From the IMG/VR virus record IMGVR_UViG_3300042557_001775, positions 1 through 64,000 of that record: DNA of 64,000 nt. One strand, 5' to 3'. Made by a program: the position numbers and the translations under genes. The DNA comes from a virus. Shown in pieces: positions 21,801 through 52,661 of this stretch. The notes below the pieces were generated by a model. The model searched no databases, had not been told where the DNA came from, and saw only the letters and a program-made list of their open reading frames with translations. Numbering within the stretch: position 1 is the stretch's first letter; each line of letters starts with the position of its first letter.

Positions 21801-24800
21801 TCAGCTTTTTGTCTTCGCCGACGAGCCTTAACAGTTCAGGACCCACGCTTCCGCCCGGTGTATTTTCTTCTTCAGGCGCGTCGTCAGTGAGTTCGGTCAC
21901 GTTCGCGACGTTTCCGACTTCCAGCTCTTCTTTTTGCGGCGCGATTAGGGTTTCCGGCACAAAGCGTTCGTCGAGGGAAACAGTCGAAGGGGCTTCCTTC
22001 CGCATCCTCCGGATCGACTTGGTGGCCGCGTTAACGGCGGCTTGGGCTACTTTGAACGGGGGAGCCTTGCTGCTCGTGATCCGGGAGACCTTGATAAGGT
22101 CGTCCACAAAACGATCAACTTCGGGAGAGCTGTCCGCGCTAACCACAGTCTTTTTGATCGCGTCATAATCTTTTTTCCCGAGACGTTCCTCCGTTCCGGC
22201 TTTGGCAACTTGGCGCCGCTTTCCTTTTGGAGAAATTACTTTTTCAAGGCTGTCGAGCGTTTCGTTGAAAACCTTTACGGCGTAGGTCTTGTCGGGGTTG
22301 TCTCGAAAACGGGCGGCAATCTTATCACGCAGGACAGCAAGATCGTTAAAGTCAGGCGCGTTTAGTCTTACTCCCAGATCGAGAGCGGCTTTTCGGACTT
22401 TGAGTTCAAGGTCTTCTGTAGGTTTGGGTTTTTTGACTGCGCGGGCAGCCGCCAAGGCCGCCGCAAAGCGACGAGCAATTTCGACCTGCGTCGCTACTGG
22501 AAGAGTGGACGTCCGACCAGAGGCCGCCGCAACGAATTGCTCCATGGTAGACGTCGCAGCCTTTTTCAGAGCCAGGGTGCGGAGGTCATCGGATTCGACA
22601 TTGGTGAGCGGACTGCCACCTCCGACTGTAATGCCCGTTGTTCGTCCCAGAAATGGTTCGAGGCCTTCGAGGAGCTGACGGTAAAGGATGCTGAACGCTT
22701 CGGGCAGCGCGGCCATTCGTCGATTAAGCTGCTGCGCTTCGCGAAGATCTACCGCGCTGCTCGACAAACGAGTTTTCTCGGCCTCAAATCCACGCGCTGG
22801 GTCTTGCTGGTAAATCTTGGTGAAGCTTCCAACGCCACTAAGCTTTTTGAAGCTCAGGGGCCTGTACGCAGACGACTCCCGGTTCGCTTCAAGCCGCTTC
22901 TTGTCGTAAGCGTTGGGGAGCATCTCAAGGCGAGCGGACAGATCGACCACGGCTTTCTCGGCGGCCCGCAAGGCGTTCTGTTCGTTCGGTGCTTCGACGA
23001 GTCCGAGACGCTGCTCCCGGAGCGTGTTGAGCCGTCCTTCGATGGTCGCTCGTTCTTCTGCGAGTTTTCCGGCAGACTGATTGACGCGCTTTGTCCGCCC
23101 AGCGATCGCTCTTTTGATACGCTCAGCGTCGCTCCTAATCTGGGTTAGCTCGTCAGTTCTTGATTTTCGCTCTGCTTTGAGTGATGCGAGCCGTGTTTCT
23201 GCTTCGCGCAATTGAGCTTCGTAGTTAAGGCCTCCGAGCCCTTCGCGAACGAGTTGAGACGCGGCGAAGCGGCCTGTCGGCTGTTTTTTGACGGCTTCGC
23301 GCAGCTCGCGAATTTCCTTTTCGGCGTTGGTAATCGCGTTAGACGAAAGTTCACCGAAGAGTTTTCCGCCTTTGCCTTCGGGCGCGTTCAGTTCTTGCCG
23401 CCGCGCTGCAAGGGCCGTCAAACGTTCGTTAAGTGTTTCTAGGGTGCTTTCTCCGTCGATGCGCGTCTCAAGCGCGGATAATTGCAGGGCTCTCGACTGG
23501 ACATTCTTACGGGCTTCGGCCGCCCGACTGCTAACGGCGGCCTGCTCCTGCCGTAGTTCGGCTTCACGATTCGGTGTCGCGTTTTGCAACGCGGCTTCTA
23601 TCTGTTCGAGCTGCGCCTTTGCATCAGCAAGGGTTTGCCGATCTTTGTCTTGGGCCTTCCGAAGCGCGTTGAGCTGGCTGGTTAAGCCTCGCGTATTTCC
23701 AGCTTTTTCGGGAGCGCGTGCCGCCGATCCGATTTCAGCCAACGCCATTTCGGCATCTCTAATCTCGGCGTCCAGACGATCACGCTCCGCGAGGGCGGCG
23801 TTGTTACCCCGCAGTAAGGCGTCAAAAGTTTTACGCGCTTTATCGCGGTTTTGGATCGCCCCCGTGAGCGCAGTTTGAGTTTGTTGGATTTCTGCGTCTT
23901 CTTCGGCGTCGAGGCGGGCAAGCGCTTCTCGGTCTTGCTCTCCAGTCGTCCGTTGCTGGTCTCGGCCGGCTTTATTTTTCGGCGGAGATACGTTGGTGAG
24001 GGTGAAACTAAGCGGATTCTGCGCGAGAACAGGCGTCCCTTCTGGGACGAAGCGGCCAGTTTCGTCACGCACACCAGCTCCAGTTTTGACCGGTGCGTCA
24101 TACGAGCCTTGGCTGACTTCGACGGGTGAGGATTTCCCGTCAACGCCGCGCCAAGTGACGGACACCACTGTAGGAGCAATTCTTCCGCGAAACAGCCGGC
24201 GCTCGATTTTGACGTCCGGATCGCCTTGCAGCAGAGATACCAATTCTGGGGTTGCGGGCACCACGTCACCAGCGTTCAGATGCCGTGCGATGTCGGTTAT
24301 GGCGCGGCGCTTCGCCACGTTTCGGTTGTTAGTTGCGAGATTAAACTGCGTGAGAGCTTCGTTGTAAGCGCCGAGCTGCGCTGAATTAGCTTCGTCTTCC
24401 CTAGCGCGGACAACTTCGTCGGTGCGTTGCCGGGCGATGGTTGCGGCGTCGCGGAGCTTTTGGTCTCTCCGTTCTTTAGTCTCGGGCACCGCTTCCAATT
24501 CACCGGCTTCGTTGGTGAAGAAGCCTCCGGCAAACACTTTGGCTTGTTCCTCCTCAAAGAGTCTTTCGTAAATCGCGGTGCGTTCTTCGTTCGTCAGGGA
24601 TTGCCGCTGCGGTTTTGTGGGGCGAACCGGAGCATTACCTTTCGGCGTCTGGATAACTGGCGTTAAACGAGCGACAATCGGGCGGCCATTATTCCATGCG
24701 GGGCCGGCCGGCTCGGAAGACAGATCGCTCGCTGGCGCGGGTTGAGGCCCGAATGGAGTTCGCATCTCGGCTAGGAGCGACGTCAGTTCGAGAGCCCGGG

Positions 24801-27477
24801 CGGACAAGGCTTCTCGCTGCGCTTGACCCGCTTTGCCGATGCCCAACTGGATCTTTGGCGTTGCGGCGAATACTCCGCGATCACTGTCTGCGAGCTTCTG
24901 CCGGACTTCGTTTAGCTCTTTTGTGTATTGCTCGCGCAGAGCTTTTCTTTCCGGAGTCTCATCTACTGCGGCCTGCTGCGGGTCCCGGGCGGCCCCTACG
25001 CCTGAAGCTTTGCTCGGCGCAGCGTCGCCCGAAACGTAATCTATTTTGTAGTTTCGGGGCTCGTCTCTTGTGCCGTCGGAAATGGAAACTGTGGTGGGGA
25101 GTCGAACGATTGAGTTCTTCAGCGCGGCGAGCTTTTGTTTTGCTTCGACGAGCGCGGTGGAAGCGGGGTCGAGTGTTTGCGAAAGTTCAGCAACCTCTTG
25201 CTCCGCTGCCGCGATTTCTGCGGCGTTGCCACTGGCTCCAGACGGCACGAAAGCATCTCCGTCTTGAGTTCCGGCGATCCCGAGCACCTCATTCAATTCT
25301 TCGGGAGTCTTCGCCGCGTTGATCGCCGCATTAAATTCGTCTTCTTGGGTGCGAAGATCTTCGAGAGGCCGGTTCGCTATGAGGTCGAACTGACTCGGCT
25401 TAAGCTCAAACCGATTGTTAGTGACGTCGTCTTGAAAAATGGCATTGCCGCTTTTGCGAAGGCCCACAAATCGAGCATTCCGAGTTCCTCCTCGGCCATC
25501 AGCGATGCTTACTTCGGCGCCCGAGTTCAAAGTTCCTACTCGATCGGTGAGGACGCTGCCTTCCAACGCTTTGCGATTTTCGGCTTCTTGAGCTTCGCGT
25601 GCGCCCCGGGAGTTCGCCAGCTCACTGACGAACGTGGCCGCCCCCATGGCTTGGCGAGCGGCGGTCGTCGGCGCACGACTCAACCGCTCACGAAGCGCGG
25701 CAACTGCCGTCGCTTTTTGTTCAGCTTCTTTGGCGCTTAAGGTTTGATCGGTAAGCTCCTTTTCAAGGCGGGCGATCTCGGCTTCTGCCTCCTGCTTCTT
25801 GAGCGTCGCGTCGGCCTCGGAAAAATCAAACTGCCCCGAACCAAGAAGCACGAAGCCTGAAGCCCCTGGCATGTATGCGGGATCGGCCTCATGCGTTTCC
25901 TTGATGGGTTTTTGCCGAGGGGCGAGTTCCGGCTCGGCTTCTCCTTCGACCCCCGCTTCGCGCTGCGATTTGAAATACTCCAGCTCCTTGGCTAGGGCGG
26001 CACCTTCTATGGTTCCCAGATCCAAGGGCGCTACGCGGACGCCGCCGAGATCAACCGCTGCGCCGACACGCCCGTCATACTCCGTCTCTGGATCGATGGC
26101 CGCCCATCCGGCGCTCTCGTTGAAGCGGAACTTGAGGCCGTCCCTTTCGATCGGCTCCGACCACGCTCCCAGAATGTCCTGCGGGGTTTCGGGGGCGGCA
26201 GGAGTTTCTTGGTCTTGGTCGTCCCCACCGATTCCGTCTATCGCTTGCTTGGTGCGAGGTGCGAGGTTTTCCAACACGCCGCCACCGCCGCCAAGCATAC
26301 CGCCGATTGTGGCGCCAGCCGCTGCCGCGATCATACGCTCCCTCCCCGCCCCAGGAGCGTTGAGCCGCTCTTCGATAGTCTGGTTCGGGTCGGCCATGCC
26401 AACGGCGGCTTGTTCGAGGCCGGTCTGGAGATACTCGGTCGCGCCCTCCAGCGGCGCACCGATGGCCGCCCCTCTGGCCGCTCCAGCGGCAACGCGCCCG
26501 GGGAACTTCAAATTCAGCGGCTTGCTTTCGACGCCAAACATCTTGTTGACGCCCGGAATCTTCGAAGCCACGAATCCCTCAAACAAAGTATCCAGCGCGG
26601 CGCCGGGGACCGATGTGGCGAGAGCCGCCGTGACTGCTTCGCTGCCACCCTCCCCGGTCTCATCCCGGATCTGGCCGTAAGTCCCGCCGGAAATCTGTCC
26701 CAAATTGGCGAGGTACGCGCCGGTCATGGCGCCGTAGCGGGTTCCGCTGGAAACGGCCCCCTGAACTCCCCGCGCAGCATCATCGACAGTCCCCGCAAGT
26801 CCACGGGCGGTTCCTTCGGCGGCCTTGGCCCCCACCGATCGGGTCAGGAGGCCCCGGGTAATCTCTTCGGCGACTTTGCGCTCGGCTTCGTCGGCCACTT
26901 CTCCGGCGGCCCGACGCTTGGCGATCTGGTTGATGACCATCCGCTTGGCGAGCGATTTACCGACCGCGCCGCCGACGCCGCCTCCCAGAATCGAGGTCAA
27001 AAGCTGGGGGAGCTGTTCGCCGAGGAGGCCGACGGCATAGCGGCCGGCATCGCCCAAGTCTTCGATATCTTCAAAAGGATCCTGCACCGAAGCGGCCTGC
27101 GTGGCCGCCTCTTCCATGGCCCGACGATAATTGTCGTAGCCCCAATCGGCGGCCCGCTCGATACCAAGTCCGTCGGCGGCCAGCCCCAAGAAGCCGTAAG
27201 CCAGTCCTTCGAGCTGGTCCCCGCCCCGGCTCAATCCGACAGAGAACTCTTCTCCCAGAGTACGGGGGACGGCTTCGAATCTGGTTCCGACGTTTAACCC
27301 TCGGGAGCTGTCGGCCAACGAAGGCAAAAGACTCTTGGCCGACTCCTGCTCCTGCTCGGGCGCAGATTCTTGGGGTATCGCCAGCTCGGCAGGTTCATCT
27401 AAAGACACCCGCCGCTGGTTTAACCCTTGAACCTTTTCTTCGTCTTCTTGCTCCAGAAGATAGTCGTACCAAGCCAT
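15841..27477 (-). CDS. Giant internal virion / polyvalent protein (3878 aa) with a metallopeptidase motif
   Basis: An uninterrupted 11.6-kb frame. Order: an N-terminus with Gly/Ala-rich amphipathic segments (about 155-180 and 330-400), a long Glu/Lys/Ala-rich coiled-coil region (about 540-1650), a peptidase-like region with H2345-E-L-S-H2349 (LLHELSHVVVNSK), a proline/lysine linker (about 2700-2760), and a C-terminal ~1000 residues resembling large polyvalent proteins of podovirus ejection apparatus, with hydrophobic helices near 3540-3580. Such proteins are packaged and ejected with DNA. I see no RNA polymerase or lysozyme motif. The leader CATAACCTAACAACC precedes the start. Confidence 0.85.
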   Translation of the reverse strand: MAWYDYLLEQEDEEKVQGLNQRRVSLDEPAELAIPQESAPEQEQESAKSLLPSLADSSRGLNVGTRFEAVPRTLGEEFSVGLSRGGDQLEGLAYGFLGLAADGLGIERAADWGYDNYRRAMEEAATQAASVQDPFEDIEDLGDAGRYAVGLLGEQLPQLLTSILGGGVGGAVGKSLAKRMVINQIAKRRAAGEVADEAERKVAEEITRGLLTRSVGAKAAEGTARGLAGTVDDAARGVQGAVSSGTRYGAMTGAYLANLGQISGGTYGQIRDETGEGGSEAVTAALATSVPGAALDTLFEGFVASKIPGVNKMFGVESKPLNLKFPGRVAAGAARGAAIGAPLEGATEYLQTGLEQAAVGMADPNQTIEERLNAPGAGRERMIAAAAGATIGGMLGGGGGVLENLAPRTKQAIDGIGGDDQDQETPAAPETPQDILGAWSEPIERDGLKFRFNESAGWAAIDPETEYDGRVGAAVDLGGVRVAPLDLGTIEGAALAKELEYFKSQREAGVEGEAEPELAPRQKPIKETHEADPAYMPGASGFVLLGSGQFDFSEADATLKKQEAEAEIARLEKELTDQTLSAKEAEQKATAVAALRERLSRAPTTAARQAMGAATFVSELANSRGAREAQEAENRKALEGSVLTDRVGTLNSGAEVSIADGRGGTRNARFVGLRKSGNAIFQDDVTNNRFELKPSQFDLIANRPLEDLRTQEDEFNAAINAAKTPEELNEVLGIAGTQDGDAFVPSGASGNAAEIAAAEQEVAELSQTLDPASTALVEAKQKLAALKNSIVRLPTTVSISDGTRDEPRNYKIDYVSGDAAPSKASGVGAARDPQQAAVDETPERKALREQYTKELNEVRQKLADSDRGVFAATPKIQLGIGKAGQAQREALSARALELTSLLAEMRTPFGPQPAPASDLSSEPAGPAWNNGRPIVARLTPVIQTPKGNAPVRPTKPQRQSLTNEERTAIYERLFEEEQAKVFAGGFFTNEAGELEAVPETKERRDQKLRDAATIARQRTDEVVRAREDEANSAQLGAYNEALTQFNLATNNRNVAKRRAITDIARHLNAGDVVPATPELVSLLQGDPDVKIERRLFRGRIAPTVVSVTWRGVDGKSSPVEVSQGSYDAPVKTGAGVRDETGRFVPEGTPVLAQNPLSFTLTNVSPPKNKAGRDQQRTTGEQDREALARLDAEEDAEIQQTQTALTGAIQNRDKARKTFDALLRGNNAALAERDRLDAEIRDAEMALAEIGSAARAPEKAGNTRGLTSQLNALRKAQDKDRQTLADAKAQLEQIEAALQNATPNREAELRQEQAAVSSRAAEARKNVQSRALQLSALETRIDGESTLETLNERLTALAARRQELNAPEGKGGKLFGELSSNAITNAEKEIRELREAVKKQPTGRFAASQLVREGLGGLNYEAQLREAETRLASLKAERKSRTDELTQIRSDAERIKRAIAGRTKRVNQSAGKLAEERATIEGRLNTLREQRLGLVEAPNEQNALRAAEKAVVDLSARLEMLPNAYDKKRLEANRESSAYRPLSFKKLSGVGSFTKIYQQDPARGFEAEKTRLSSSAVDLREAQQLNRRMAALPEAFSILYRQLLEGLEPFLGRTTGITVGGGSPLTNVESDDLRTLALKKAATSTMEQFVAAASGRTSTLPVATQVEIARRFAAALAAARAVKKPKPTEDLELKVRKAALDLGVRLNAPDFNDLAVLRDKIAARFRDNPDKTYAVKVFNETLDSLEKVISPKGKRRQVAKAGTEERLGKKDYDAIKKTVVSADSSPEVDRFVDDLIKVSRITSSKAPPFKVAQAAVNAATKSIRRMRKEAPSTVSLDERFVPETLIAPQKEELEVGNVANVTELTDDAPEEENTPGGSVGPELLRLVGEDKKLMSKLSTEDQKLFLGTFGLEWDPSQDRYWYKDPGKIARLEELVTATGRVDFSNLDPRLQEIIRYIQGDVSYNTLYGIPENNLIGKKAADWKPSATAERLLQQKENREILEWAKRGGNAGRISGRGLSAAGDGAVAGGAPRVSQSLGGPDPDPAGERGLRSPSGPDADRSGSVSSGAAQPIRGSRPRTRLLNRTVRTVAPRAARAYVASWSGLTSKDLEGYTDEQINRIVTAIETEGRATESTLAAGGNVIGQTSQPFADLLLTKSATELLAGMAATQAARRRGSNAAKLKIKRENIRKLIQSGAFKDIETFLKTVANDQSQSLKARSIAAAFVKLGPRLGWNDNVSLQIAGFGRNFNSQPLTEEEIDRRVKVKDGKITLTLGSKKKEITLDADPDKADAQIDAARSEVEDDIIKSNAVTWSGRAAESDGAYSIYLNTNAIHDNREGGAIDTLLHELSHVVVNSKLNGFVELNSAERAAIQRLEGFRRQSIIAAGRSRGLDVPAKPTDAEVKIISDQLQEIAASESNQALISLTSLEEFVVEVTHNPEVAKQLATLGFGKGTFKGDFVAALKDVWNSIVALITGVQVDSSSPLAEGFSDSWRLNFSSVEGDAAPELIRSRMIDEMEAAVAQAQYIEEQLEAQDLAGTSEDRNRLAAEWPAVRETRRQQAQQAQAEARREIRLPSGRVLRYRQGFAPTSGVAGTNVLPRGTEVILLEQAAEAEAAEAGRSVDEIQQDISKKESDLRALEGILEGLDELHAFKTQRRRNTNKPEDPRVREAAQKLGRNTFTPMADIEAELNLLYSELAAAKARQPAEPAIEPKPEPPTPVEPKPEPDPEPPKEPPKKKKKAPAPDPDPEAAPEVSDTDITDADTTGESPRLKVVPEPKGTPAPKPTRKTDPEIDKAVQAMSRSEFVAWAQKTGRAEPVVIDGETKGDDFRPPSGGQMDSGVYWDLFNEKNQAAVEKRMQKRAPAPEVTIKRDPDSMTEQELNEIPNIRYSDSLGGKFERVFRDEVSKTPTGGTYVKGKFISAVDRLMDARGTDKFQSSRAGIKAEASRADANIRLLVRAVRDRNIDPRKITTALGNLDNPFTEAQMAEMMRVRLTDPEAAAELKDRYRRENRMKFRERQTAALKSLPRDVRVLVTQMRDHINVLQRRLKSEGLVSGDLEIAIDETLGIYLNRSYAIFDNPKWADRVRKNLKVMAGARGFLKKQLIEKAKERILNTATKTGTTISEAEAQRQATRSVAAADVETALEAALSVKDPTLEALSGRVMGQKNLSIFMSRGTIAPEIQALWGVYDNPETAYGKTILKMSTLIYNHRFLRELRELGLSEGWFSAQPEMRQDEDTGEFVVRGANFEEILRTADRAAAETAFRDAFADWEAPTGFVKISDETNARLSPLAGVWGNRDIVEALYKMYPQSDAENAARLFAKATGLSMAMATVGSAAAQTRNYLAGYLKLLSTGALMPGSFSGKAIGLAHQTAIQEAFKNYGSGPKAYEKARQEIEKLIRLRVFGESVTANMIDDLVQDYRELGGARVQAGDAVTRKITQPFRKLWDFAQGTYAMSDNIMRAIVFYTERENYRRAYPKMAEAELDEKAAEISREIYWTYSEAPQWVQELKRGPGLVVAPFITFTTEVVRTAINTLRLAASEIKSGNPELRSLGYRRIGGFGLAMTVPSVAAGGIAAMAGMTPEDEEDLREFLPDWQKNNQLLLFGRTGNTISYADISFFDGHEYFKKPFVAMMRAFGRAESMPEAIADGGVAMVGELMKPFVGEQIVFGAVTSVLRNVDAGGRRIYNPQDSGTNIAQAIGAHLAGAFVPGTAKTIYRGGLGVAGVVSDSGQQFSAAQEIGAIVTGTRIRQVDLDQALGFGASEFLRNKRDATSLFNRVLLSRGTQPPGAVAGSFDLTDQAQYRLTQEARRRYMAARRLGLPEPAAISRLRATGIGKDDLEDIASGIYRPFQPSKESLKNAAPERAREAEQAAGQAQERDL

Positions 27478-30483: not shown

Positions 30484-31983
30484 TTAAATATAACTGAATG
30501 ATTTATTTCCAACCCCATACTGACCGGCTGGAGTGTAATAATACTGACCGACACCCCACCGCGACATCTCAGAAGGGTCTTTTCCCCACGCTTTAGCCGC
30601 GCCGGTAGCCGATCCATAAAAACCTGAATTACGGTCTAAGCCTCCCGTCACCATCGAGCTTAACGAGCTTCCGACACCTAGGATATCGTTGAAGCTAAAG
30701 CGACTTTGGGGTGCCGAGAAGCTCCTGCTGTAGTCTCCGCCGCCTCCACTGCCGCCAAGCGATCCCCCAAGGCTCGCCCCTAATGAAGCACCTGCGGCAG
30801 TGCCTAACCCAGGGGCCACGAAAGTGCCTACTAAACCCCCTGCGACAGCTCCGCCGAGTGACGCGATAGAAGATAGCCCCGCTGCGTATTGCCGGTTCTT
30901 GTCCGCTTCTACTTGAAGTTGATTTTGCCAAGACGTGTTGTTGATGCTCTGTCTCCAGTCACCCCACGTTGTAGCAGCCGCGACAGACTGTCTTGACGCG
31001 GAGTCGTACGCAGAGGTCTGCATGGCGCCGCTTTTTAGTATCGCGTCTAGCCCGCCCAAGTATCGTGTCTTGCCCATGTCGCTTTGCGACACAAGAACAT
31101 CCCGTGCGACGCCTTGCCGGGCCCCTAAAATTGTATTCAAGCCAGTCTGTTGATTCCGAACGTATGCTTGTTGCGCTCCAAATATATTTTCGTTGTTTCG
31201 CTGGTTTATTGTTAGCGCGTCTTTACTGCTTATCCCCAGGTAGTCACTGGCCTGCGCTGCCGTGGTTTGCAATCCGGATACTTGGGTGTCGTAGATAAGT
31301 TTCGCCCAATTCTGGGCGCTTTGGTCTGCCTGCATCGCAAGATCCAGCGAAGTGAGGCCTAAGTTACGAGCGGCCAACGCCGATCCCGCTTGGCTTCCAG
31401 CCCCAAGTCCTCCCTGAAGAGCCCCGTACGCGCTTTGCCGTTGCACGGAAGCCATCACGTCGGCGGGCAAACGCCCTTGTAACATCTCAAGGTTGTTCCG
31501 GCTAATCTGCTCTTGCTGAGCTAACTGATACGGGTTTGCCCGGTCGATCATGCTTTGCCGAGTACGGAACGCAGACTCCGTCAACTTGTCGGCAAAACTA
31601 ATAAAATTGTCTGCATTCTTTAGGTTGAAATCGACTGCCTCTTGGCCTGAGCGCGTAACAAGGCCGTCTGAACGAGTTTTGTATTCGTCGATATAGCCTT
31701 TCTCTTCTGCGTAGAGTGCCGGCAGCGCGTCTCGAAAAGACGCGATGGCATCTTGCATCGATGTAGAATATTCGGTGTTGGCGGACTCGATAAGAGAGCG
31801 GTAGTCACCAGCTCTTTCTTGCTCTAGCGTAACAACCTCCTTGGCCGCAGCGATACTTTTATCGACGTACGCTTTGATCGCGGCCATCGATTTCCCGTAC
31901 GCATTGTCCGCAAGCTGAATTCCTTTTTGCTCCCGTTCCCGGTTCACCTTCCCCGGATCGCCTTTGCTGCCGCCCATGCTCAT
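30484..31983 (-). CDS. Internal virion protein with glycine-zipper C-terminus (499 aa)
   Basis: It encodes 499 residues. Helical/Gln-rich throughout, with coiled coils (AKEVVTLEQERAGDYRSLIE) and a C-terminal glycine-zipper membrane-like segment (GGAVAGGLVGTFVAPGLGTA). This pattern is typical of T7 gp14-like proteins that form the outer-membrane part of the ejection channel. I chose the ATG at 31983 because it overlaps the previous stop (ATGA); the frame extends further upstream. Role inferred from composition and gene order. Confidence 0.7.
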   Translation of the reverse strand: MSMGGSKGDPGKVNREREQKGIQLADNAYGKSMAAIKAYVDKSIAAAKEVVTLEQERAGDYRSLIESANTEYSTSMQDAIASFRDALPALYAEEKGYIDEYKTRSDGLVTRSGQEAVDFNLKNADNFISFADKLTESAFRTRQSMIDRANPYQLAQQEQISRNNLEMLQGRLPADVMASVQRQSAYGALQGGLGAGSQAGSALAARNLGLTSLDLAMQADQSAQNWAKLIYDTQVSGLQTTAAQASDYLGISSKDALTINQRNNENIFGAQQAYVRNQQTGLNTILGARQGVARDVLVSQSDMGKTRYLGGLDAILKSGAMQTSAYDSASRQSVAAATTWGDWRQSINNTSWQNQLQVEADKNRQYAAGLSSIASLGGAVAGGLVGTFVAPGLGTAAGASLGASLGGSLGGSGGGGDYSRSFSAPQSRFSFNDILGVGSSLSSMVTGGLDRNSGFYGSATGAAKAWGKDPSEMSRWGVGQYYYTPAGQYGVGNKSFSYI

Positions 31984-32453
31984 GCGGCCTCCTTCCCGAT
32001 CCACTCAATTGGATCGTCATTCGCGGTGAAGAATTTCCACATTTCAAGGCTCGACTCCCGGGCGGCTTCGGGGCCTCGAAGGATCATCACGATCATCGGA
32101 GCCATCAGGAGATGGACGTCCCGGAGCGTCAACGCATAGGCGCGCCCTCTTGACCCTTCGCGCTCCAGTTCCACCGAATCCCGCCAAGCGATGATGGCTT
32201 GGAAAATTAGCGGCATCAGCTTCGCTTTGTGCGCGTTGAAAAACTCGTTGGTCGGCAGCTCGACCAAAGCACCCCAGAAAGTCAGGTCGATTTCTTCGCG
32301 GGGCGGCAACTCGTCCCCGTCCACGAGGGCATCCCAGAGTTCGGAAATGCCGCCGAGCGTCGTGATAAAGTCGAGTGCGCTTCGGTCTCCGCCAAACCAT
32401 TCAAGCAGTTTGGCGTCTCGGGCGTCTCTCCATTCAGGTGAATCGTAGATCAT
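31980..32453 (-). CDS. Late protein (157 aa), unknown
   Basis: It encodes 157 residues, helical, with L-W-D-A-L-V-D-G-D-E-L-P-P-R-E-E and LPTNEFFNAHKAKLMPLIFQ. Proteins with this kind of sequence sit among podovirus virion genes; I know no function. The start follows AATAACCTGCTAACCC directly, with TATAAT just before, giving a possible promoter/leader. It overlaps the next gene by ATGA. Confidence 0.7.
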   Translation of the reverse strand: MIYDSPEWRDARDAKLLEWFGGDRSALDFITTLGGISELWDALVDGDELPPREEIDLTFWGALVELPTNEFFNAHKAKLMPLIFQAIIAWRDSVELEREGSRGRAYALTLRDVHLLMAPMIVMILRGPEAARESSLEMWKFFTANDDPIEWIGKEAA

Positions 32454-32472: not shown

Positions 32473-35400
32473 TCACCGCATGAAGCGGACTGCACGTCGG
32501 ATGGGCGGCTGCCCCGTGAAGTTCTGCTGTGCGAGCTGGGTGGCGAGCATTTGGGTGGCCTTCTCCATATGGGCCGCGATCTGGTCTCCTCCCAGAAGAA
32601 AACCCTTGGCGGCCTCGAAGACGGCGGCAAAGTTCCGCAGATACATCTTCTCGTTGTCTGAAGCATGAGGCAAGAAGCGCCGTTTCCCGAGGATACGGAC
32701 CACGGGGACAGTGTCAGGCAGAGTGATGAAGTATTTCCGCTTGAGCTTGTTGCCGTCAGCGGGATCGGGGGCCTCGCCGCGATCGACTGCGCCTTGCATC
32801 CAAGCGTAGTCGTCCCCGCGATAGCCAGGACCGCCGCGCAGCCATTCGGAGTACCTATCATGGACGGCACGGGGATTGTTATCGAAGGACATGAAAAGGA
32901 TCGTCTCAATCTCCTGGGGCAGGAAAAACTCGCCCGTCGCGGTGACGTTGAGCGTGTAAGTGTCCACGCTGCCAACCCATTTGCCGGTCAGCATGAGCTG
33001 CTCCTCGGCGGTGTTGATGAACCGCTTCACGGCGGCATCGGAAAGGCGATACGCCTCGGGGAGTTCCAGCCCCGCTCTGCCCCAGTGGTAACCGAACGTG
33101 TCCGGGGCAGAGGCCGACAACTGCTGCCGCTTGGCGCGGCGGGTTTCTTCGATGTCGGCCACAATGTCGCGTTCGACCAGAGCAAGAGCCGATGCCTTTA
33201 TGGCTCCGGCTGCGTCGGCATACTTGGAATCATCGTCACGACCGTTGACGACAACTACCGATCCAGACGGGGAGTTGTTCTTGCGCGTCATGGCGGCCGG
33301 GACCAAGTAGCTCTCGATCATCAGCTTTTTCTGCTCGTACGTCACGGCTGGGCGCGGGCCGCTGTAATCTTCGCGCCGTTGGAGGAACGCCTGATGGGAA
33401 CGGATTTCTGTGACGGCTTGGTCGGCCAACGTCTGCATCCTCGAAGCGGGGATCTGCAATCCTCCGGCGATTTCGTTGTGGAGGCGCCCGATTTCTCCGG
33501 TCGCATCGCGCCGGGCTTCTTCGACGCCGCGAACGAGATTCCTTTCCACGAGGGCAAAGGCTTCTTGCTTAAAGGCCGCAGCGGCGTCGGCTTGCCCCCG
33601 GGAGGTGGCAACATAGGATTCGACGAGCTTTTTGCGGATCTCGTCGTCGAACGTCCCGGGTGCGGTCGCCTTGTAATCTTCGCGGCGGGCCAAGAAGTTA
33701 AAGTGCGCGGCGGCCTCGGTGTTGGCGGTTGTCAGGTAAGCGTCAATCCGCGCCGTTGGGATTTTCACGCCGTCAGGCAACTCATTGTGCAGCCGCCCCG
33801 CGAATGTAGCTACAGCGCGACGAGACGCTTCTACCTGAGTCATCAGGTCACGCTCGATAAGTTCAAAGGCTTCCTGTTTTAGTTTGGTGGCTACGTCGGG
33901 AGCGGCTTGAGCGGTAGCGAGGTAGGACTCGACCAACTTTTTACGGACTTCAAAAGAAAAGGTCGCAGGAGCTGTCGCGTTGTAGTCTTCCCGTTTCGCC
34001 AGAAAATTGTAGTGCGCGAGGGCTTCCGTTGCCGCCGTACTCAAGTAAGTCGTAAGTCTCGCTGTCGGGACTTTCACGCCGTCGGGAAGTTCGTTGTGTA
34101 AACGGGTTTCGTCCGGAAGTCCGGCAACACTGCGACGGGTAGCCTCTACCTGAGTCATCAGGTTGCGTTCGATCAGCTCAAACGCCGTCTGCTTCAACTG
34201 ACTAGCGACGTCGGGCGTCCCTTGGGCAACGGCGATACATGCTTCAACGAGCTTTTTGCGGATCTCAAACGGAAAAGTCGGCGCGGTCGCGTTGTAATCT
34301 TCTCGGCGCGCCAAGAAAGTGAAGTGATCCGTAGCTTCGCTTACCGCCTGGGACAAATACGCGGCAAGGCGAGTAGTCGGGTATTTGAGCCCCTCGGGAA
34401 GTTCGTTGTGCAGCTTGGCGACGTCTGCGTCATCGGTGTACTCGCGACGAGCCGTTTCCACTTGCGCCATCAGGTTGCGCTCGATAAGCGAAAACGCCTC
34501 GGCTTTAAGGCTCACGCTCAAATCAACGACTTTGTCGTTTCCTGCCGTTGCGGCGCCGCGCGTCGTGGCATGATACGATTCGATCAGCTTTTTGCGAATT
34601 TCATAGGGGAACGGGATAGGCAGAGTGCCGGTGGAGTAGTCCTCGCGGCGAATCAAAAAGTTCCAATGGGCCGTCGCGTCCAAGACCGCTTGATTCATGT
34701 AGTCTACGATGCGCGCAGTCATCACTTTGACGCCATCGGGTAGTTCGTTGTGCAATCGCCCAATCTCGCCGGGTTGGTCGCGCCGATTAGCTTCAACCCT
34801 TGCCATTAGATCGCGCTCGATCAACGAAGCGGCTTCTTGCTTCAAGGCGGTTGCAACGTCGGCCTGTCCGCCAGCGGTCGCGATATACGCTTCGACTAGT
34901 TTCTTTTTGATCTCAAAAGGAAACGACGGAAACGGCGGGTCGGTTTCTCTGTAGTCTTCGCGGCGCGCGAAGAAAGCCCACTGAGCGGCAGCGTCGGTCC
35001 CCGCTTGAGACAAATAGGTTTCAAGCCGACTGGTCTTAAACCGAGTTCCGCCGGGCAGCTCATTGTGCAAGCGGCCAGCTTCGCCGGGATAACCTTTACG
35101 TTCCGCCTCGACCAAAGCCATCACGTTGCGCTGGATCAACTCGAATGCCTGCGTTTTGATCGCGCCACCGTCGGCTCCATTGTCGGTCATCAACAAAGAC
35201 AGCGTCAGGAGGCGGATGACTTCTCCCGGTAGCGCGGCTGGAAATGAAGTGGCGTCGCTGGAGAGCGCGATAAACGTCAGCGGGACACGATCAAATTCCT
35301 CCGACCGAGCAATGAAGTTGTGGTGGTCTATCGCCTGTTGGTATGCCTGATTAAGGTAAGACCGAATACGGGTCGCGGTAAGCCGATACTTAGAAACGGT

Positions 35401-35841
35401 CTCAAGCCCAACTCGCCCGACCATGCCGCCGAAAGTGTTTTGGCTACTCAGGGCCAAAGTTTGAAACGCGGTCTTACGCTCGCGGTCCACCGTGGTGGTG
35501 ATTTTGCGCTCGATATACGAGTAAGCTTTTTGCTCCAGAACAGCCGCCCGCTCTAAGTCGTTGTTCTCTTCGCGCCATAGCGCGAGGATCATGCTCTTGG
35601 TCGCGTCCGGCTCGTCGAGAATCAAGAGCCCGGTAAGTGGATTGCCGGTCGTGCCACCAGCTTGCCAGACAAGCTCAGTACGCTCTGCCTCTTCCTGCCG
35701 AGAGACAAAATTAAAATGATCGATCAGACGACGTTGCGCTTCGTTTATTCGGCTGTCGATGCGTGCAGAATTGCTCGTGGCTACGCCATTATCGACGTAG
35801 GCGGCGAATAACCCGCGTGCTTGGACAAACGAAGTAGCCAT
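32473..35841 (-). CDS. Tandem-repeat tail adaptor-like protein (1122 aa)
   Basis: It encodes 1122 residues. About eight tandem ~100-110-residue units repeat a pattern: R-L-H-N-E-L-P-D-G, T-A-R-I, a helix ending N-F-L-A-R-R-E-D-Y, then F-E-I-R-K-K-L-V-E-S-Y and L-I-E-R-N-L-M-x-V-E-A-x-R-R. The last ~220 residues resemble podovirus tail tubular protein A (gp11-like adaptor): RLSDAAVKRFINTAEEQLML, TGKWVGSV, then a strand-rich part with LPQEIETILFM. It probably joins portal to nozzle, with repeats multiplying the helical domain. It overlaps the next gene start by TAATG. Confidence 0.75.
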   Translation of the reverse strand: MATSFVQARGLFAAYVDNGVATSNSARIDSRINEAQRRLIDHFNFVSRQEEAERTELVWQAGGTTGNPLTGLLILDEPDATKSMILALWREENNDLERAAVLEQKAYSYIERKITTTVDRERKTAFQTLALSSQNTFGGMVGRVGLETVSKYRLTATRIRSYLNQAYQQAIDHHNFIARSEEFDRVPLTFIALSSDATSFPAALPGEVIRLLTLSLLMTDNGADGGAIKTQAFELIQRNVMALVEAERKGYPGEAGRLHNELPGGTRFKTSRLETYLSQAGTDAAAQWAFFARREDYRETDPPFPSFPFEIKKKLVEAYIATAGGQADVATALKQEAASLIERDLMARVEANRRDQPGEIGRLHNELPDGVKVMTARIVDYMNQAVLDATAHWNFLIRREDYSTGTLPIPFPYEIRKKLIESYHATTRGAATAGNDKVVDLSVSLKAEAFSLIERNLMAQVETARREYTDDADVAKLHNELPEGLKYPTTRLAAYLSQAVSEATDHFTFLARREDYNATAPTFPFEIRKKLVEACIAVAQGTPDVASQLKQTAFELIERNLMTQVEATRRSVAGLPDETRLHNELPDGVKVPTARLTTYLSTAATEALAHYNFLAKREDYNATAPATFSFEVRKKLVESYLATAQAAPDVATKLKQEAFELIERDLMTQVEASRRAVATFAGRLHNELPDGVKIPTARIDAYLTTANTEAAAHFNFLARREDYKATAPGTFDDEIRKKLVESYVATSRGQADAAAAFKQEAFALVERNLVRGVEEARRDATGEIGRLHNEIAGGLQIPASRMQTLADQAVTEIRSHQAFLQRREDYSGPRPAVTYEQKKLMIESYLVPAAMTRKNNSPSGSVVVVNGRDDDSKYADAAGAIKASALALVERDIVADIEETRRAKRQQLSASAPDTFGYHWGRAGLELPEAYRLSDAAVKRFINTAEEQLMLTGKWVGSVDTYTLNVTATGEFFLPQEIETILFMSFDNNPRAVHDRYSEWLRGGPGYRGDDYAWMQGAVDRGEAPDPADGNKLKRKYFITLPDTVPVVRILGKRRFLPHASDNEKMYLRNFAAVFEAAKGFLLGGDQIAAHMEKATQMLATQLAQQNFTGQPPIRRAVRFMR

Positions 35842-36524
35842 TAAGCCGGTATTTCTTCAACTGTCACTAAGACATTCCCACTCGCGCCGAAGAGGTCTGG
35901 CGTGGTACTAGAGCCCGCGAGATACGCAGTGCCGCTGGTAGTCCCGACGCGCAGCGAATAAGTAACAGCGGTCGTAGTGTTGGGGGTGTGCAGCCCTTCG
36001 ACAATAATACTTCTCGACTCGGCGGCGCCGCCAAAACTAGTTACCGTAGCGGCGAAGCACGTCGATTCGATGCCAGCCATCAGGCCCGCCGTAATGGACG
36101 CGGGGTACGTTGCCCCGCCGATGGAACAGCTCGGCAAAAAAGCACGAACCAGCATTTTGTTGGCGGTTGTGCGCGGGGTGATGCCCGGCGTGTTTAGCAC
36201 GTTGGCCCCCGCGTTCCCCGGCAAGGCCGTTGACGAACCCGTCGCTATCACTCCAGAAGTGGAAAAGTGCGACAAGCTGGCCGTGACAATATTGCTTCCT
36301 ATCACAGTCTGCCATTTCGCGTCCCAAAACCCGTTGAGGGTTCCCTTGGAAGTATCTAGCCACAGCGCCGATCCGTCAGTCGGGACGTTGGTGTTTACCC
36401 CACTGATAAACACAATCTTTTTGCCTGCTGGCGCGGTCAAATAGGACGCAAACGTCTCCAACAAAGTTTGGAGATTGCTCGGATACTTTGAGTTTACGGG
36501 CAGAGTTCCGGGTATAAGCGGCAT
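35841..36524 (-). CDS. Structural beta-rich protein (227 aa), unknown
   Basis: It encodes 227 residues, rich in Ser/Thr/Ala/Gly with many short strands (KIVFISGVNTNVPTDGSALW, AVTYSLRVGTTSGTAYLAG), typical of small tail-fibre or decoration proteins. It lies between the fibre gene (631 aa) and the adaptor gene and is linked to the latter by a one-base stop/start overlap (TAATG). No family recognised. Confidence 0.65.
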   Translation of the reverse strand: MPLIPGTLPVNSKYPSNLQTLLETFASYLTAPAGKKIVFISGVNTNVPTDGSALWLDTSKGTLNGFWDAKWQTVIGSNIVTASLSHFSTSGVIATGSSTALPGNAGANVLNTPGITPRTTANKMLVRAFLPSCSIGGATYPASITAGLMAGIESTCFAATVTSFGGAAESRSIIVEGLHTPNTTTAVTYSLRVGTTSGTAYLAGSSTTPDLFGASGNVLVTVEEIPA

Positions 36525-36526
36525 AA

Positions 36527-38422
36527 TTAACGTTTATTGAAGTGTGGGCTTAATAGTATATCCCATCCGAAAGGAGCGCAACTAGCCCTCGGGGTAATGA
36601 TCATGGCTTTGGTCGCGGTGCAAGGAACACAAAACACCCGGCCGTCCGGCAATACAACTCCTCCCGCATAAGCTCCTTTACCGAAGCCGTCTTGGGTGGT
36701 TGGAGGCGTCGGAAACCCCGGTAGCTGAATCGAAGCGGTGGAGCCAGAAGCGTCAGAGTCAAAAACGCGCGGAAATTGTGCCCGCCCCGGAATGAGAACG
36801 ACAAACCCATCCGGCAGCCGGACCATGCCGGAATAGTCCTCGACAGTGCTGACCGGGAGGCTGACCGCCGTGCGTAACAACTGTTGCGCGTCAGAGCTGA
36901 ACACCTCTATCTTTAACGTCGTCGGGCTAGATTGATCGACGAGCGGAATCAATATCTCGCCTCGAGCGTTAAGCAATGGGGCTGCGCGAAAATGCGACTG
37001 CGGCTCGGACGGAGTTGGAAACAAGTTTAGCTGTTGTGACCCGTTGTAACCGCCGGGGGCAAGCGCACCTGTTCCGCTTTGATAAACATGTGCGCCGAAA
37101 AACACGTCGCCTTGGGAAGTTAACGAGGCCCCGCGAGTAAGATACGTCCCTTTATTAAGACCCGTAAGCACTTCTAGAGTGCCGTCCATGCGAACTATCG
37201 CAGGATTAACGCTGGCGTTTGGTGCCAGAAACGCGGACCGGTGTCCACTGAACTTGCGCGTGTTTGGCAGCATAACCCCTCCTACAAACGCTCTGTTCGG
37301 AAGCGACGCGACTTCGTTGGTCCACACAGATCTATTTTCGTAAGGATAGTACAGCAGCGCTCGCTTGGAGTTGTATGGAACGCACACCACAGCAATTTGA
37401 GGTATGCGGGTATAATTGTAAGACGCGCTGTCAAGCGCATCGCCAGCCGCCGACACGGGATAGTCCGCCATGAGAACGCCGCCGGCAAAAAGGGCGCCTG
37501 TGTTGGGATAAGTTCCGTTTTCTGGAGTCGGTGCCGATACAATCACATCCTTCCTCGGGTCGTAAATCATTGCTTCCGTATAATTGAAAGGAACTAGAAA
37601 CACGCGCCCATCGGGAAGTAATACCCCGCCGCTAAAGGCCCCGCCGAATCCAGCGGTCAAAGTCGAGCCGCCTGGAAACGTCGGAGCCGCCGCCCGGGAA
37701 CGACCGACAACTGGAAAACTTCTATTTCGGGATGCCGTTAGTTCTAAGTTTGAGCGTAGCTGAGTAAAAAAAGTACCTTCTTGCTGCCCAAACCAGCGCG
37801 TGGTCCCATCGGGCGCTGAATTCAAAAAGTGTACGCAGGCATCAAGGTCGCCGGCCGGATGGCCGCCTGTTACTCCCCGCCCGAAGTGAGTGGACAAAAC
37901 AGCTTCGGTCGCAATGTTCGTCGATCCCACAGCTCCTGGTTTGAGACTGCGACTGCCCACCGCATTATCCGCGAGGTGCTTCTCTTGAACGGGTCGAACC
38001 TGATTAGAATCTGTTGGCGCGGCGCTTACCGGATGATCAAGCTGCTCGTCGCCGATAGCCCGCGCCTTAATGTGGTTTCGCCCAACCGCGCGCTGCGAAT
38101 CGTCGGTGGGGCTGCTTTGCAGTTTTGTTTCAGTGACGGACCCGTCTTGTAGCTTACTGGCCGTAACCGATAGGCCGGGCAAAAGGTTCGCTAACCCTAC
38201 TTCCGCAGCTACCTGGCCCCTCCGCACGATCGCGACGTCTGTGGTCAACGTCGATGTAAGAGGAGCTTCGATTCCGCCATTGTAAATCCAGTTACGCAAT
38301 GAGGCCATCGAAGCGTTGAAGGTTTCACTCGCTCTTGAGACCAACATCAAGTCCGTAGCTGCGACCGGCTCTAGCACTGGGTCAAGCTGCGCTATCGTTT
38401 TGTTTGTGGTGTAGTTCGGCAT
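36527..38422 (-). CDS. Tail fibre with repeated 'LPDGRV' beta motifs (631 aa)
   Basis: It encodes 631 residues. The N-terminus is fibre-like (TNKTIAQLDPVLEPVAATDLMLVSR). From about residue 260 it has repeated GG-V-x-L-P-D-G-R-V-F-x-V-P units and a similar end (GGVVLPDGRVFCVP), a kelch- or propeller-like pattern. It may bind the host surface. Its stop codon overlaps the following gene start region closely, and the coding sequence looks less GC-rich than neighbours, hinting at exchange. Confidence 0.7.
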   Translation of the reverse strand: MPNYTTNKTIAQLDPVLEPVAATDLMLVSRASETFNASMASLRNWIYNGGIEAPLTSTLTTDVAIVRRGQVAAEVGLANLLPGLSVTASKLQDGSVTETKLQSSPTDDSQRAVGRNHIKARAIGDEQLDHPVSAAPTDSNQVRPVQEKHLADNAVGSRSLKPGAVGSTNIATEAVLSTHFGRGVTGGHPAGDLDACVHFLNSAPDGTTRWFGQQEGTFFTQLRSNLELTASRNRSFPVVGRSRAAAPTFPGGSTLTAGFGGAFSGGVLLPDGRVFLVPFNYTEAMIYDPRKDVIVSAPTPENGTYPNTGALFAGGVLMADYPVSAAGDALDSASYNYTRIPQIAVVCVPYNSKRALLYYPYENRSVWTNEVASLPNRAFVGGVMLPNTRKFSGHRSAFLAPNASVNPAIVRMDGTLEVLTGLNKGTYLTRGASLTSQGDVFFGAHVYQSGTGALAPGGYNGSQQLNLFPTPSEPQSHFRAAPLLNARGEILIPLVDQSSPTTLKIEVFSSDAQQLLRTAVSLPVSTVEDYSGMVRLPDGFVVLIPGRAQFPRVFDSDASGSTASIQLPGFPTPPTTQDGFGKGAYAGGVVLPDGRVFCVPCTATKAMIITPRASCAPFGWDILLSPHFNKR

Positions 38423-38694
38423 TAAAGCGATAGTTTGAAATTCAATGTGTCATCATTTGCCGCAAACGTGCTGAGCAATAAATAACGGTTGCTGTTAATG
38501 AGTAAATATACAGCTTCTGTCGGGCGATTGTAGCTCAGATGCCCGTCGAATGCTTGCGTCCCCAGCAGTTGCTGCGTCGGCAAGATTGCGGTCGCGTACA
38601 CTGGTGCTGAAAGCCCCCCGCTGAGCGGTCTACAACCTACCCCGGTAGTAGCCCCTATTTCCAGTGGCGCCGCCGTTATAGCGCGGCAGCTCAT
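38422..38694 (-). CDS. Small structural protein (90 aa), unknown
   Basis: It encodes 90 residues (MSCRAITAAPLEIGATTGVGCRPLSGG ...) with a Ser/Thr/Gly-rich, beta-like sequence and a hydrophobic middle (AVYLLINSNRYLLLSTFAAND). It lies between the nozzle-like protein and the fibre, overlapping both by 1-4 bp. A fibre-connector or capping role is possible. Not recognised. Confidence 0.6.
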   Translation of the reverse strand: MSCRAITAAPLEIGATTGVGCRPLSGGLSAPVYATAILPTQQLLGTQAFDGHLSYNRPTEAVYLLINSNRYLLLSTFAANDDTLNFKLSL

Positions 38695-40826
38695 AAAATT
38701 GAGCCTCCTCCAACGGATTCGGTCTGCTTAGTAGCGTGTAATAGCAGCCTGCCTAACCTCGCGCGGCCGCGCCATGAAATGCGTAGCGCAAATTCGTGCC
38801 CTAAGTTTGCGGGTAATTCAGTCGCTGCGTTGTCAGCTTCCGGCGGGGTAGGCAGCCGAAATTGAGAAATATACCCCCGGGCGTAATCAGGTACGTTATT
38901 GGAAACGCCGTCTGGAACAAACTGCGTTACAAAGCACTGTGTAATAGTGTGCCAATGCACCCACTGCGGGCTATCATCGGCGTGCCAATAAATTTTGCAC
39001 TCGAACGTTTCGTCGGGCCCGCCGCCCAAATCGTCGAACCAAACGTCGCACCTCAGTAGCTTTTTGACATTATACTCTTCCTTGAAATCAAAGCTTTTCG
39101 TGTTCACGAGCGCATTGACGGGCCGAACAACGCCTGCGCCATCAATGTCATGCTCTCGGTCTAAAGACACTTCCCACAATTCATGGAAGTTGGTGTGAAA
39201 GCATATGGCAAACATGCGACGAACACCGCCGACCTCGGCGGCAAACACTTGCAAGGGAGAGATTCCAGTCCACACGCCATCAAACGAAGCTGCTGATTTT
39301 TCTCGGTTCCCTGCCGTGTTTCGAAAGTCCAATACCGCGATTCCGTCGTAGACAATGTTAACCGGCGCGTCCGCGAGCAAAGCGGCGCTTGCATCTTGCG
39401 CTGCTTTTGTACTGCCCGACGCAGTAGGAACGACCGCGCGAGGCCAACAAGTCATCAACAGACGGTCATCAAAGTAGGCAAAACTTACGCGCTCCAGAAG
39501 ATACGATGTGTCGTATTTTAAGATCGAGTCGATTTCTGAGGACATGGGCGTTTGGCCGTAGCCCTCAAAATCAGCGCGCGCGCTCCGGTACGAGCGAATT
39601 CCGTTTCCGTCCAAGCTCCGAAAAAACAGATCCCCGTTTACTGCTTGCACACTCTCGGCCGCCGACCCTACGTTCAAAAATAACACGCGCTGAAAACCTT
39701 TGGTTTGCTTCCATTGCATTCGTTCGAGCGAAACGGTAAAGCTCGCGGCGCCTCGCTCGCAAAACGCGATAAGATCGCCTTGTCCAGTCGCGTCATCTTG
39801 GACTGGAACAAACGCCATGGTCTGTACTTTTCCCATTTCGCCGGGCAACGAAAACGACCCACCTTCGGCTAAAAACGTATGCTCGCTAAAATTCAGCAAA
39901 TCTTGATCGCTACCTGAATTGAATCTCGCGACGAAACCGCCAGCCCCGGCGGTTGCAACCGCAGCGGGTATCACAAACGAGTACTCGTCGTTTCTTTGAA
40001 CGACAACGTATGTTCCGTTGATGTTCGGGGTGCTGCTGTGTCCGGTGATTGTGACTGAATCGCCCGCCGAAAAACCGTGAGGTGCTTCTGTCGTAACAAC
40101 GCACGGAAAGTCTACGCTTGTGCTTTTAATTGCTACGCTGGACACGCTGCCTCCGTAAATGAGATCCCCCGCCATTATTTCACTGCCGTCGTTGACGGCC
40201 ACAAAAAGTCGCCCTTGTCCGTACGCCATTTGCTTTCCGGACGGAACGCTAGGGGAACCGTAATAGCTCGCCGGTTGACAGCCATAGCCGTCATAGATGA
40301 TCGGCTCGTTTGCGCCGTCTTGGATGACGACAAATTTCTCGGCTTGTACTAAATAAACCGGAACGGTGTTCAGTATCGGAACTGACTGGTTGACCCAAAA
40401 ACACGAACCCGCTGTTAGATCAATCGCTAGGACGCGCCCATCGATGACGAGGATAAGCTGCGCCGGTCGCCCCTCGCGGGGGTCATTATAAATTAAACCC
40501 CCTTGATAATACCGCCCTGCCCGGACGTACGCTTCAAACCGGCTTGCGGAAGTAGAAGTGTCTCCCGTTAATCTTGGTCCCGAAAGGCCGTCTTGGACCC
40601 ACTCGTCAAATCCCGGCTGCCCACTAGCGACTGACGTTGGCGATCGCCAATAAGAAGCTCGGATTTGAGAAAAACCCGGCCGCGTTCTAGGACCGCCGGC
40701 GCCCCGAAAAGTGCAATTTTCGGCGTAGGACGCCGCGCCGTCAGCAATCTGGGACGGATCGCGGCTTCCATCCATGCCGACCAAGCCACGGAAGCCATCA
40801 ACCAGTCTTTCCTGGTCGATAATCAT
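38691..40826 (-). CDS. Tail nozzle-like protein (711 aa)
   Basis: It encodes 711 residues. Beta-propeller-like organisation with repeated strands, e.g. G-A-A-S-Y-A-E-N-C-T-F-R-G near the start, FVVIQDGANEPIIYDG, and Y-G-Q-G-R-L-F-V-A-V-N. This resembles podovirus nozzle / tail tubular protein B-like proteins that form the tube tip of the short tail. It follows the capsid gene in the late transcript and precedes the fibre and adaptor genes, as expected. Confidence is limited to fold class. Confidence 0.7.
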   Translation of the reverse strand: MIIDQERLVDGFRGLVGMDGSRDPSQIADGAASYAENCTFRGAGGPRTRPGFSQIRASYWRSPTSVASGQPGFDEWVQDGLSGPRLTGDTSTSASRFEAYVRAGRYYQGGLIYNDPREGRPAQLILVIDGRVLAIDLTAGSCFWVNQSVPILNTVPVYLVQAEKFVVIQDGANEPIIYDGYGCQPASYYGSPSVPSGKQMAYGQGRLFVAVNDGSEIMAGDLIYGGSVSSVAIKSTSVDFPCVVTTEAPHGFSAGDSVTITGHSSTPNINGTYVVVQRNDEYSFVIPAAVATAGAGGFVARFNSGSDQDLLNFSEHTFLAEGGSFSLPGEMGKVQTMAFVPVQDDATGQGDLIAFCERGAASFTVSLERMQWKQTKGFQRVLFLNVGSAAESVQAVNGDLFFRSLDGNGIRSYRSARADFEGYGQTPMSSEIDSILKYDTSYLLERVSFAYFDDRLLMTCWPRAVVPTASGSTKAAQDASAALLADAPVNIVYDGIAVLDFRNTAGNREKSAASFDGVWTGISPLQVFAAEVGGVRRMFAICFHTNFHELWEVSLDREHDIDGAGVVRPVNALVNTKSFDFKEEYNVKKLLRCDVWFDDLGGGPDETFECKIYWHADDSPQWVHWHTITQCFVTQFVPDGVSNNVPDYARGYISQFRLPTPPEADNAATELPANLGHEFALRISWRGRARLGRLLLHATKQTESVGGGSIL

Positions 40827-52308: not shown

Positions 52309-52661
52309 TACGCCGCGATCCACTCGTCGTCACCAATCTTAATCAACGCCTGCGACGCTGAATTCCGAGTGTACGTTATTACTGTCGAGCTGCCCGCTTC
52401 AAGCGCAACCTCGCCGGGATCAGGAGACAATATCAAAATTTGAGTCCCTATCGGAAACTTTACTGAGGCGCTCGGAACATAGACCGGCCCCCCCGCCGTA
52501 ACCACTAGCCCGCCAGCATCTTCTAATTGAAGTGTATAAGGGGCGTTACTGAATAGCCGCCTCACTCCGCACGACAACGGTGCGGCCCCTGCTTCTTGGG
52601 CCGAGGTAATGGGAAAAAGCTCCCCGCTAAACGGGTTAAACTTGTACCCTGGAAGACTCAT
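52308..52661 (-). CDS. Small structural protein (117 aa), unknown
   Basis: It encodes 117 residues: Pro/Gly start (SLPGYKFNPFSGELFPITSA), a Cys residue, and beta strands (YTLQLEDAGGLVVTAGGPVYVP, QALIKIGDDEWIAA). It precedes the LRR gene with a one-base overlap (TAATG) and may be its chaperone or attachment partner. No family recognised. Confidence 0.6.
   Translation of the reverse strand: MSLPGYKFNPFSGELFPITSAQEAGAAPLSCGVRRLFSNAPYTLQLEDAGGLVVTAGGPVYVPSASVKFPIGTQILILSPDPGEVALEAGSSTVITYTRNSASQALIKIGDDEWIAA

Follow-up and report, generated by a model that had tools for sequence, protein, structure and literature searches.

Architecture of the repeat-containing adaptor protein

The window analysed here is a 64,000-nucleotide (nt) stretch of the 72,742-bp IMG/VR virus record IMGVR_UViG_3300042557_001775, for which the phage collection contains no annotated relative. 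It encodes a 1122-residue protein in which eight tandem helical repeats precede a C-terminal domain (CTD) with the predicted fold of a phage adaptor. We put at roughly even the chance that this protein is a head-to-tail adaptor whose helix bundle has been multiplied within one polypeptide, and whose expandable middle is a spacer, probably in the form of extra ring layers.

The gene is a minus-strand open reading frame (ORF) that occupies exactly positions 32473–35841 and begins with ATG; its relatives have the same ends and a varying middle. A repeat profile, in the form of a hidden Markov model (HMM), was made from units delimited by LHNE in the window protein and in related ones. The HMM recognizes eight units of ~104 residues between residues 19 and 905, and these are followed by the 217-residue CTD. 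Hence, the about eight tandem repeats proposed in a sequence-only reading of the window are present, with an adaptor-like domain behind them. R3 to R7 each match the HMM with an independent E-value (i-E) of 1e-46 or better, and the matches of R1, R2, and R8 are weaker. R1 (residues 19–125, positions 35467–35787, i-E 5e-7) is degenerate and keeps its N-terminal position in all relatives. R2 (residues 153–257, 35071–35385, i-E 1e-15), the start of which resembles that of the CTD, is immediately preceded by the motif TFGGMVGRVGLET, which begins at residue ~136. The canonical repeats are R3 (residues 258–362, 34756–35070, i-E 4e-48), R4 (residues 363–476 with an HMM match over 363–473, 34414–34755, i-E 6e-47), R5 (residues 477–580 with a match over 477–576, 34102–34413, i-E 2e-47), R6 (residues 581–683 with a match over 581–682, 33793–34101, i-E 6e-52), and R7 (residues 684–786, 33484–33792, i-E 1e-48), R7 being the penultimate repeat, whose position is conserved. 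R8 (residues 787–905, 33127–33483, i-E 4e-24) is the last one. In the alignment, R4 has an insertion of ~10 residues within the loop between helices 3 and 4, and R8 has one of ~22 residues within the same loop. The units start at 35070, 34755, 34413, 34101, 33792, and 33483, and the six starts given in the sequence-only reading were right to within 15 nt.

The canonical units R3–R7 share 52–68% of their residues pairwise, but only 55–66% of their nucleotides, and the same codon is used at only ~35–50% of the identical residues. Within the gene, no exact DNA repeat exceeds 20 nt, and extension of 16-nt seeds yielded no direct repeats of at least 30 nt. As 20 nt is far below what confuses assemblers, collapse or misassembly of the array in the window record is very unlikely on sequence grounds, and the array stands against the earlier concern that its repeats might have been collapsed or misassembled. 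Compared with the nearest relative, the ratio of nonsynonymous to synonymous polymorphism (pN/pS) is 0.126 for the whole gene and 0.04 for the CTD; the gene is under purifying selection. Another contig, 3300042389_001427 (its ends being L010 and L045), has both ends inside adaptor repeats that are 99% identical, which marks an assembly break. The circular genome of that contig was probably opened by the assembler at the array, and its repeat counts are not to be trusted because of the break.

Adaptor-like fold predicted for the C-terminal domain

In the AlphaFold2 model of the full-length protein, every unit is composed of four helices, of which the first is short and helices 2, 3, and 4 have 25, 15, and 28 residues, respectively. 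Locally, this model is of moderate confidence, with a predicted local distance difference test (pLDDT) of 74.6, but the units are poorly arranged in it, with a predicted template modelling score (pTM) of 0.33; the relative placing of the repeats is thus not fixed by the model. A focused model was made of a natural 355-residue protein from a sister phage, which has one repeat and the CTD, and its pTM of 0.66 is better. In both models the CTD (residues 906–1122, 32476–33126, minus strand as for all segments of the gene) has the helix order of the unit, with a beta domain inserted between helices 2 and 3 and a tail at the end. The beta insert (residues 959–1054, 32680–32967), as assigned by DSSP on the models, corresponds in position to the fibre dock of T7. 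The tail (residues 1106–1122, 32476–32526), which is modelled with low confidence, would correspond to the portal-embracing segment of T7. The repeats are all-helical and have no beta insert according to DSSP. T7 gp11 has been described as combining a bundle of four helices with a beta dock for fibres and, at the C-terminus, a segment embracing the portal (PMC6702177), and a similar layout has been given for the SU10 adaptor (PMC9509320). The helix–helix–(dock)–helix–helix order of the CTD in both models matches the description of T7 gp11.

We then inspected the fold matches of the models. For the focused model, each of the 13 best matches in the PDB is an adaptor, connector, or neck chain of a phage, and four of them have an E-value below 0.001; the top match is the adaptor of phage SU10 (E 4.5e-5, probability 1.00). 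In BFVD, a library of viral models, 44 matches pass 0.001, and several of those with functional names are adaptor or tail tubular proteins, such as ‘Head to tail adaptor’ and ‘Tail tubular protein A’. The fold search with the full-length model ranks adaptors first as well (GP4, probability 1.00), though with an E-value of 0.04. These predictions support the CTD as an adaptor domain by fold. Known adaptors are said to share no mutual sequence homology (PMC6702177), and sequence searches with the adaptor protein against Pfam, PHROG, and PDB gave no link to known adaptor families. The CTD part by itself has no match in Pfam or PHROG. Matches of the repeats to Pfam PAX and DUF3615 were rejected, being short, foreign to the layout, and without a family pattern. 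The likeness to gp11 that the sequence-only reading saw in the C-terminal part is borne out for the fold, by the 13 best PDB matches and the T7 gp11 helix order, but not for the sequence (P 0.07).

Probable origin of the repeats

R2 starts with TFGGMVGRVGLETVSKYRL and the CTD with TFGYHWGRAGLELPEAYRL. When profiles were compared with hhalign, the R2-type repeats matched the CTD with a P-value of 2e-6 and a score of 43.2, and none of 100 column shuffles scored above 23.7. The R2 profile matched the canonical unit profile with a P-value of 8e-21, and the direct comparison between the canonical unit and the CTD was not significant. R2 is homologous to the CTD and bridges the canonical repeats to the adaptor domain. 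Because of this homology, the array probably arose by multiplication of the adaptor’s own helix bundle. The best reading is that the bundle was duplicated, and that the beta insert was either lost in the copies or gained in the last one.

Variation of repeat number among relatives

Two scans of viral contigs provided ~30 further arrays. Complete proteins in the window’s broader clade have 4, 5, 6, 7, 8, or 9 repeats, and the sister phages L168–L171 have a fused protein with three. The survey for repeat-number variation suggested in the sequence-only reading was thus positive, with a range of 3 to 9 repeats. On a tree of the constant parts, in which many inner branches are unsupported, repeat number changed at least 13 times. 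Well-supported close pairs differ from each other, namely the window and L003 (8 and 9 repeats), L005 and L008 (7 and 6), L039 and L040 (7 and 8), and L163 and L164 (5 and 6). The difference between L163 and L164 is a clean in-frame unit of 312 nt, and the two are 96% identical elsewhere. Interior repeats change in number as whole in-frame units.

The best match of each repeat was sought in every other phage, which gave 306 comparisons. R1 finds R1 and R2 finds R2 in all 306, the penultimate repeat finds its counterpart in 267, and the last repeat in 278. The interior repeats have a likeness of 0.69 within a phage versus 0.68 between phages. The smallest array of the main clade, that of L012, is composed of exactly R1, R2, the penultimate and the last repeat, and the CTD. 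These four repeats are positional orthologues, and 0–5 interchangeable interior repeats are found with them in the window’s broader clade. In main-clade comparisons, the conservation of R1 is 0.65–0.69 versus 0.55–0.63 for the interior repeats, and that of the CTD is also somewhat above the interior. Fixed ends with an expandable middle are the anatomy of a putative spacer between two fixed docking ends. Between the window and L002, synonymous divergence is 0.21–0.45 in R4–R7 (33484–34755) versus 0.01–0.07 in R1–R3, the values for R4–R7 being two to ten times those for R1–R3. From this excess we infer that the middle of the gene was exchanged by recombination.

Relatives were also sought outside these contigs. 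No relative of the adaptor protein was found in annotated phages by tblastn, and two pattern scans of 84,980 prokaryote species genomes found no relatives, so no host or prophage was found. An outgroup with a single bundle was sought via a 29%-identical portal (L150/L165); the only contig, of 12 kb, has no adaptor.

Split versions of the array

Three neighbouring ORFs encode the array in L163, L164, L174, and L274. Its two interruptions both fall within the helix 3–helix 4 loop, where R4 and R8 of the window have their insertions, and each downstream protein begins with helix 4 of the repeat left unfinished by the upstream protein. The ORFs are separated by a 1-nt gap in L163 and L164, and the junctions in L174 are a 5-nt gap and a 1-nt overlap. 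A programmed frameshift that joins the split genes is disfavoured, as each downstream ORF has its own start beside the upstream stop. At the first junction, the frame of the downstream ORF is closed a few codons upstream. Judging from these junctions, separate but coupled genes are preferred over a frameshift. Either the split chains complete each other’s bundles, or the folding unit is helix 4-1-2-3. Either case implies ordered co-assembly of the products, in keeping with a layered structure. L174 (split, five repeats) and L168 (fused, three repeats) are close relatives, so the change between the fused and split states is recent.

Proposed spacer role and alternatives

In the arrangement that we favour, the CTD would be an ordinary adaptor that docks on the portal, as its fold and C-terminal tail suggest, and the repeats would be adaptor helix bundles without the beta fibre dock, continuing as further rings. 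The four core repeats (R1, R2, penultimate, and last) together with the CTD would provide the end contacts, with R1 meeting the nozzle, and the 0–5 interior repeats would act as the spacer. Twelve chains side by side could then make up a barrel that links portal and nozzle and consists of stacked rings, and each extra repeat would add one layer of tail. A more specific proposal, which we hold tentatively and rate somewhat below even, is that the tail is a podovirus-like barrel, that bundle number per polypeptide sets its length, and that whole layers are gained and lost by in-frame recombination between the fixed ends.

Several points weigh against this arrangement. The pTM of the full-length model is 0.33, and the TM-scores of the focused model to solved adaptors are modest (~0.45–0.47 by target). 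The hhalign comparison of the CTD profile with eight gp11-family proteins was not significant (P 0.07), and the homology signal between the repeats and the CTD is carried mainly by helices 1 and 2. The ring proteins of crAss phages keep a beta-sandwich in each ring, but the repeats here have none. The portal and nozzle are assigned by place only.

The strongest alternative, though an unlikely one, is that one adaptor ring bears the repeats as a collar or as twelve flexible rods that hold fibres or touch the host surface, and that repeat number sets the reach of these arms rather than tail length. Since the repeats are followed in the chain by an adaptor domain that is complete in itself, ring formation might not require them. 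The low full-length pTM is compatible with beads on a string, and fibre-type genes surround the adaptor gene (36527–38422 matches phrog_892). However, the repeats lack the beta insert that matches the fibre dock, so docking of fibres in the T7 way would not be expected of them. The suggestion in the sequence-only reading that the repeats fix several fibres has no support, nor does its suggestion of a stretchable gatekeeper. The N-terminus has no receptor-binding-like domain, and the high conservation of R1 at the free end fits a fixed docking partner, though that partner could be a fibre.

Less probable again is a function of the repeats in the head or in assembly and ejection, as a portal plug, a store of ejection proteins, or a chaperone-like scaffold, in which case they may be cleaved off. 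The gene is located between fibre genes and genes for putative ejection proteins, and in the main clade repeat number correlates with the length of the next-but-one (internal) protein (rho 0.67, P 0.0008, uncorrected for kinship). On the tree, however, this correlation comes down to two independent pairs. The internal protein keeps its length between L163 and L164 and between L039 and L040, each a pair that differs by one repeat, and the window clade, having 8–9 repeats, has the shortest internal protein. A tape-measure-like link to the downstream internal protein was rejected, as it fails on independence and on the close pairs despite the rho of 0.67.

Tandem fusion of ring subunits is a general route to pseudo-symmetric rings, and it would allow several bundles of one chain to fill one ring with fewer than 12 chains per dodecamer. 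We regard such packing as improbable, since most of the bundle numbers, 4, 5, 6, 7, 8, 9, and 10 with the CTD included, do not divide 12. Moreover, close relatives gain or lose single units, and the beta dock and portal-binding tail are on the last bundle only. Finally, the chance that the array stems from faulty assembly or is a relic that is not translated, as the broken contig 3300042389_001427 might suggest, is negligible in view of the 20-nt longest exact repeat, the pN/pS of 0.126, and the in-frame arrays on many independent contigs.

Neighbouring genes

The gene directly upstream (35841–36524, minus strand) encodes a 227-residue protein whose N-terminus, PGTLP..YP..PQ.LL..FA.YL.AP, is conserved beside the adaptor gene in 15 of the 15 relatives compared. 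The putative nozzle, or tail tube end, protein (711 residues, 38691–40826, minus strand) is kept in all relatives compared and was assigned from gene order and size only. It has no PDB sequence match, and its length has no relation to repeat number among the relatives. The adaptor gene is beside that of the putative nozzle in all relatives, and portal, capsid, and nozzle are assigned by place and conservation only. The putative portal (780 residues, 52873–55215, minus strand), which is suggested by its size and its place next to the terminase, is 70–74% identical across the clade and has no match in Pfam, PHROG, or PDB sequences. In annotated phages, tblastn found nothing for the putative nozzle or the putative portal. 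The terminase large subunit (56290–58065, minus strand) matches phrog_2 with an E-value of 6.5e-20, and its tblastn matches in annotated phages have 22–25% identity. Downstream of the adaptor gene is a putative internal or ejection protein (30484–32004, minus strand), proposed from its place and helical make-up. This protein and its orthologues range from 499 to 801 residues, the longer ones having coiled-coil-like insertions.

Other large proteins of the window were inspected as well. The 631-residue fibre-type protein at 36527–38422 contains repeated GG.LLPDGRVF..P motifs that resemble a beta-propeller tip; its N-terminal half matches the tail fibre family phrog_892, and the Pfam search was negative. 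A putative fibre protein of 1034 residues (49219–52323) has leucine-rich-repeat matches, with LRR_1 above the cut-off, and a match to a tail fibre PHROG. The protein of 3878 residues at 15841–27477, which has 2879–3907 residues in relatives, is negative in the Pfam search and matches the virion structural protein family phrog_22602 C-terminally (3e-30). In sister phages, a protein of ~363–385 residues is encoded directly downstream of the adaptor gene (L169:6704-7795, L270:1126-2283). Its N-terminal part has matches to sulfotransferase families and its C-terminal part to the citrate synthase C-terminal domain (PF00285, E 2e-7), an odd pairing for a structural gene cluster.

Comparison with known systems

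A single adaptor ring is believed to be the norm in short-tailed phages, the crAss-like phages being the known exception. The tail barrel of crAss001 is composed of five stacked dodecamers from four paralogous ring-protein genes, and other podoviruses had shown only one ring according to the same paper (PMC10172136). The sequence-only reading had set the array against podovirus adaptors with one helical domain each. Many bundles in one chain are indeed new, but the stacking of five adaptor-like rings in crAss001 (PMC10172136) shows that several bundles per tail have a precedent. What is new is that a single chain has many adaptor bundles and that these change rapidly by whole units, of which we found no earlier report in the open-access literature. 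The close relatives form a stepwise series with 3 to 9 adaptor bundles, encoded by one fused gene or divided over three, which makes the question of stacking testable among them by imaging. If the bundles stack, they would provide a built-in ruler of tail length without a tape measure, and the series is likely a case of a single ring protein multiplying on the way to a long tail.

As with the ring proteins R1–R4 of crAss001, several adaptor-like helical units per tail would result from duplication, and sister phages use adjacent genes. The crAss001 units are encoded by separate genes, whereas the window has one gene and L163, L164, L174, and L274 have three adjacent ones. Each crAss001 protein combines a helical domain with a beta-sandwich, whereas a chain here has 3–9 units without a beta domain, in a number that changes fast. 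In crAss001 the rings stack, and the bundles of the present arrays would do so in the favoured arrangement. Similar to the adaptors P22 gp4, HK97 gp6, and SPP1 gp15, the single repeat is a predicted helix bundle without a beta dock; unlike the repeat array here, those adaptors have one bundle per chain. The CTD resembles the adaptors T7 gp11 and SU10 gp11 in its predicted order of two helices, beta insert, two helices, and C-terminal tail. Different from them, the chain carries eight further helix bundles, the repeats have no beta dock, and the likeness to the T7 gp11 family is one of fold with no detectable sequence relation. As it has eight repeats and the CTD, compared with one bundle per gp11 chain, we class the protein as a variant that carries an adaptor domain, and not as gp11.

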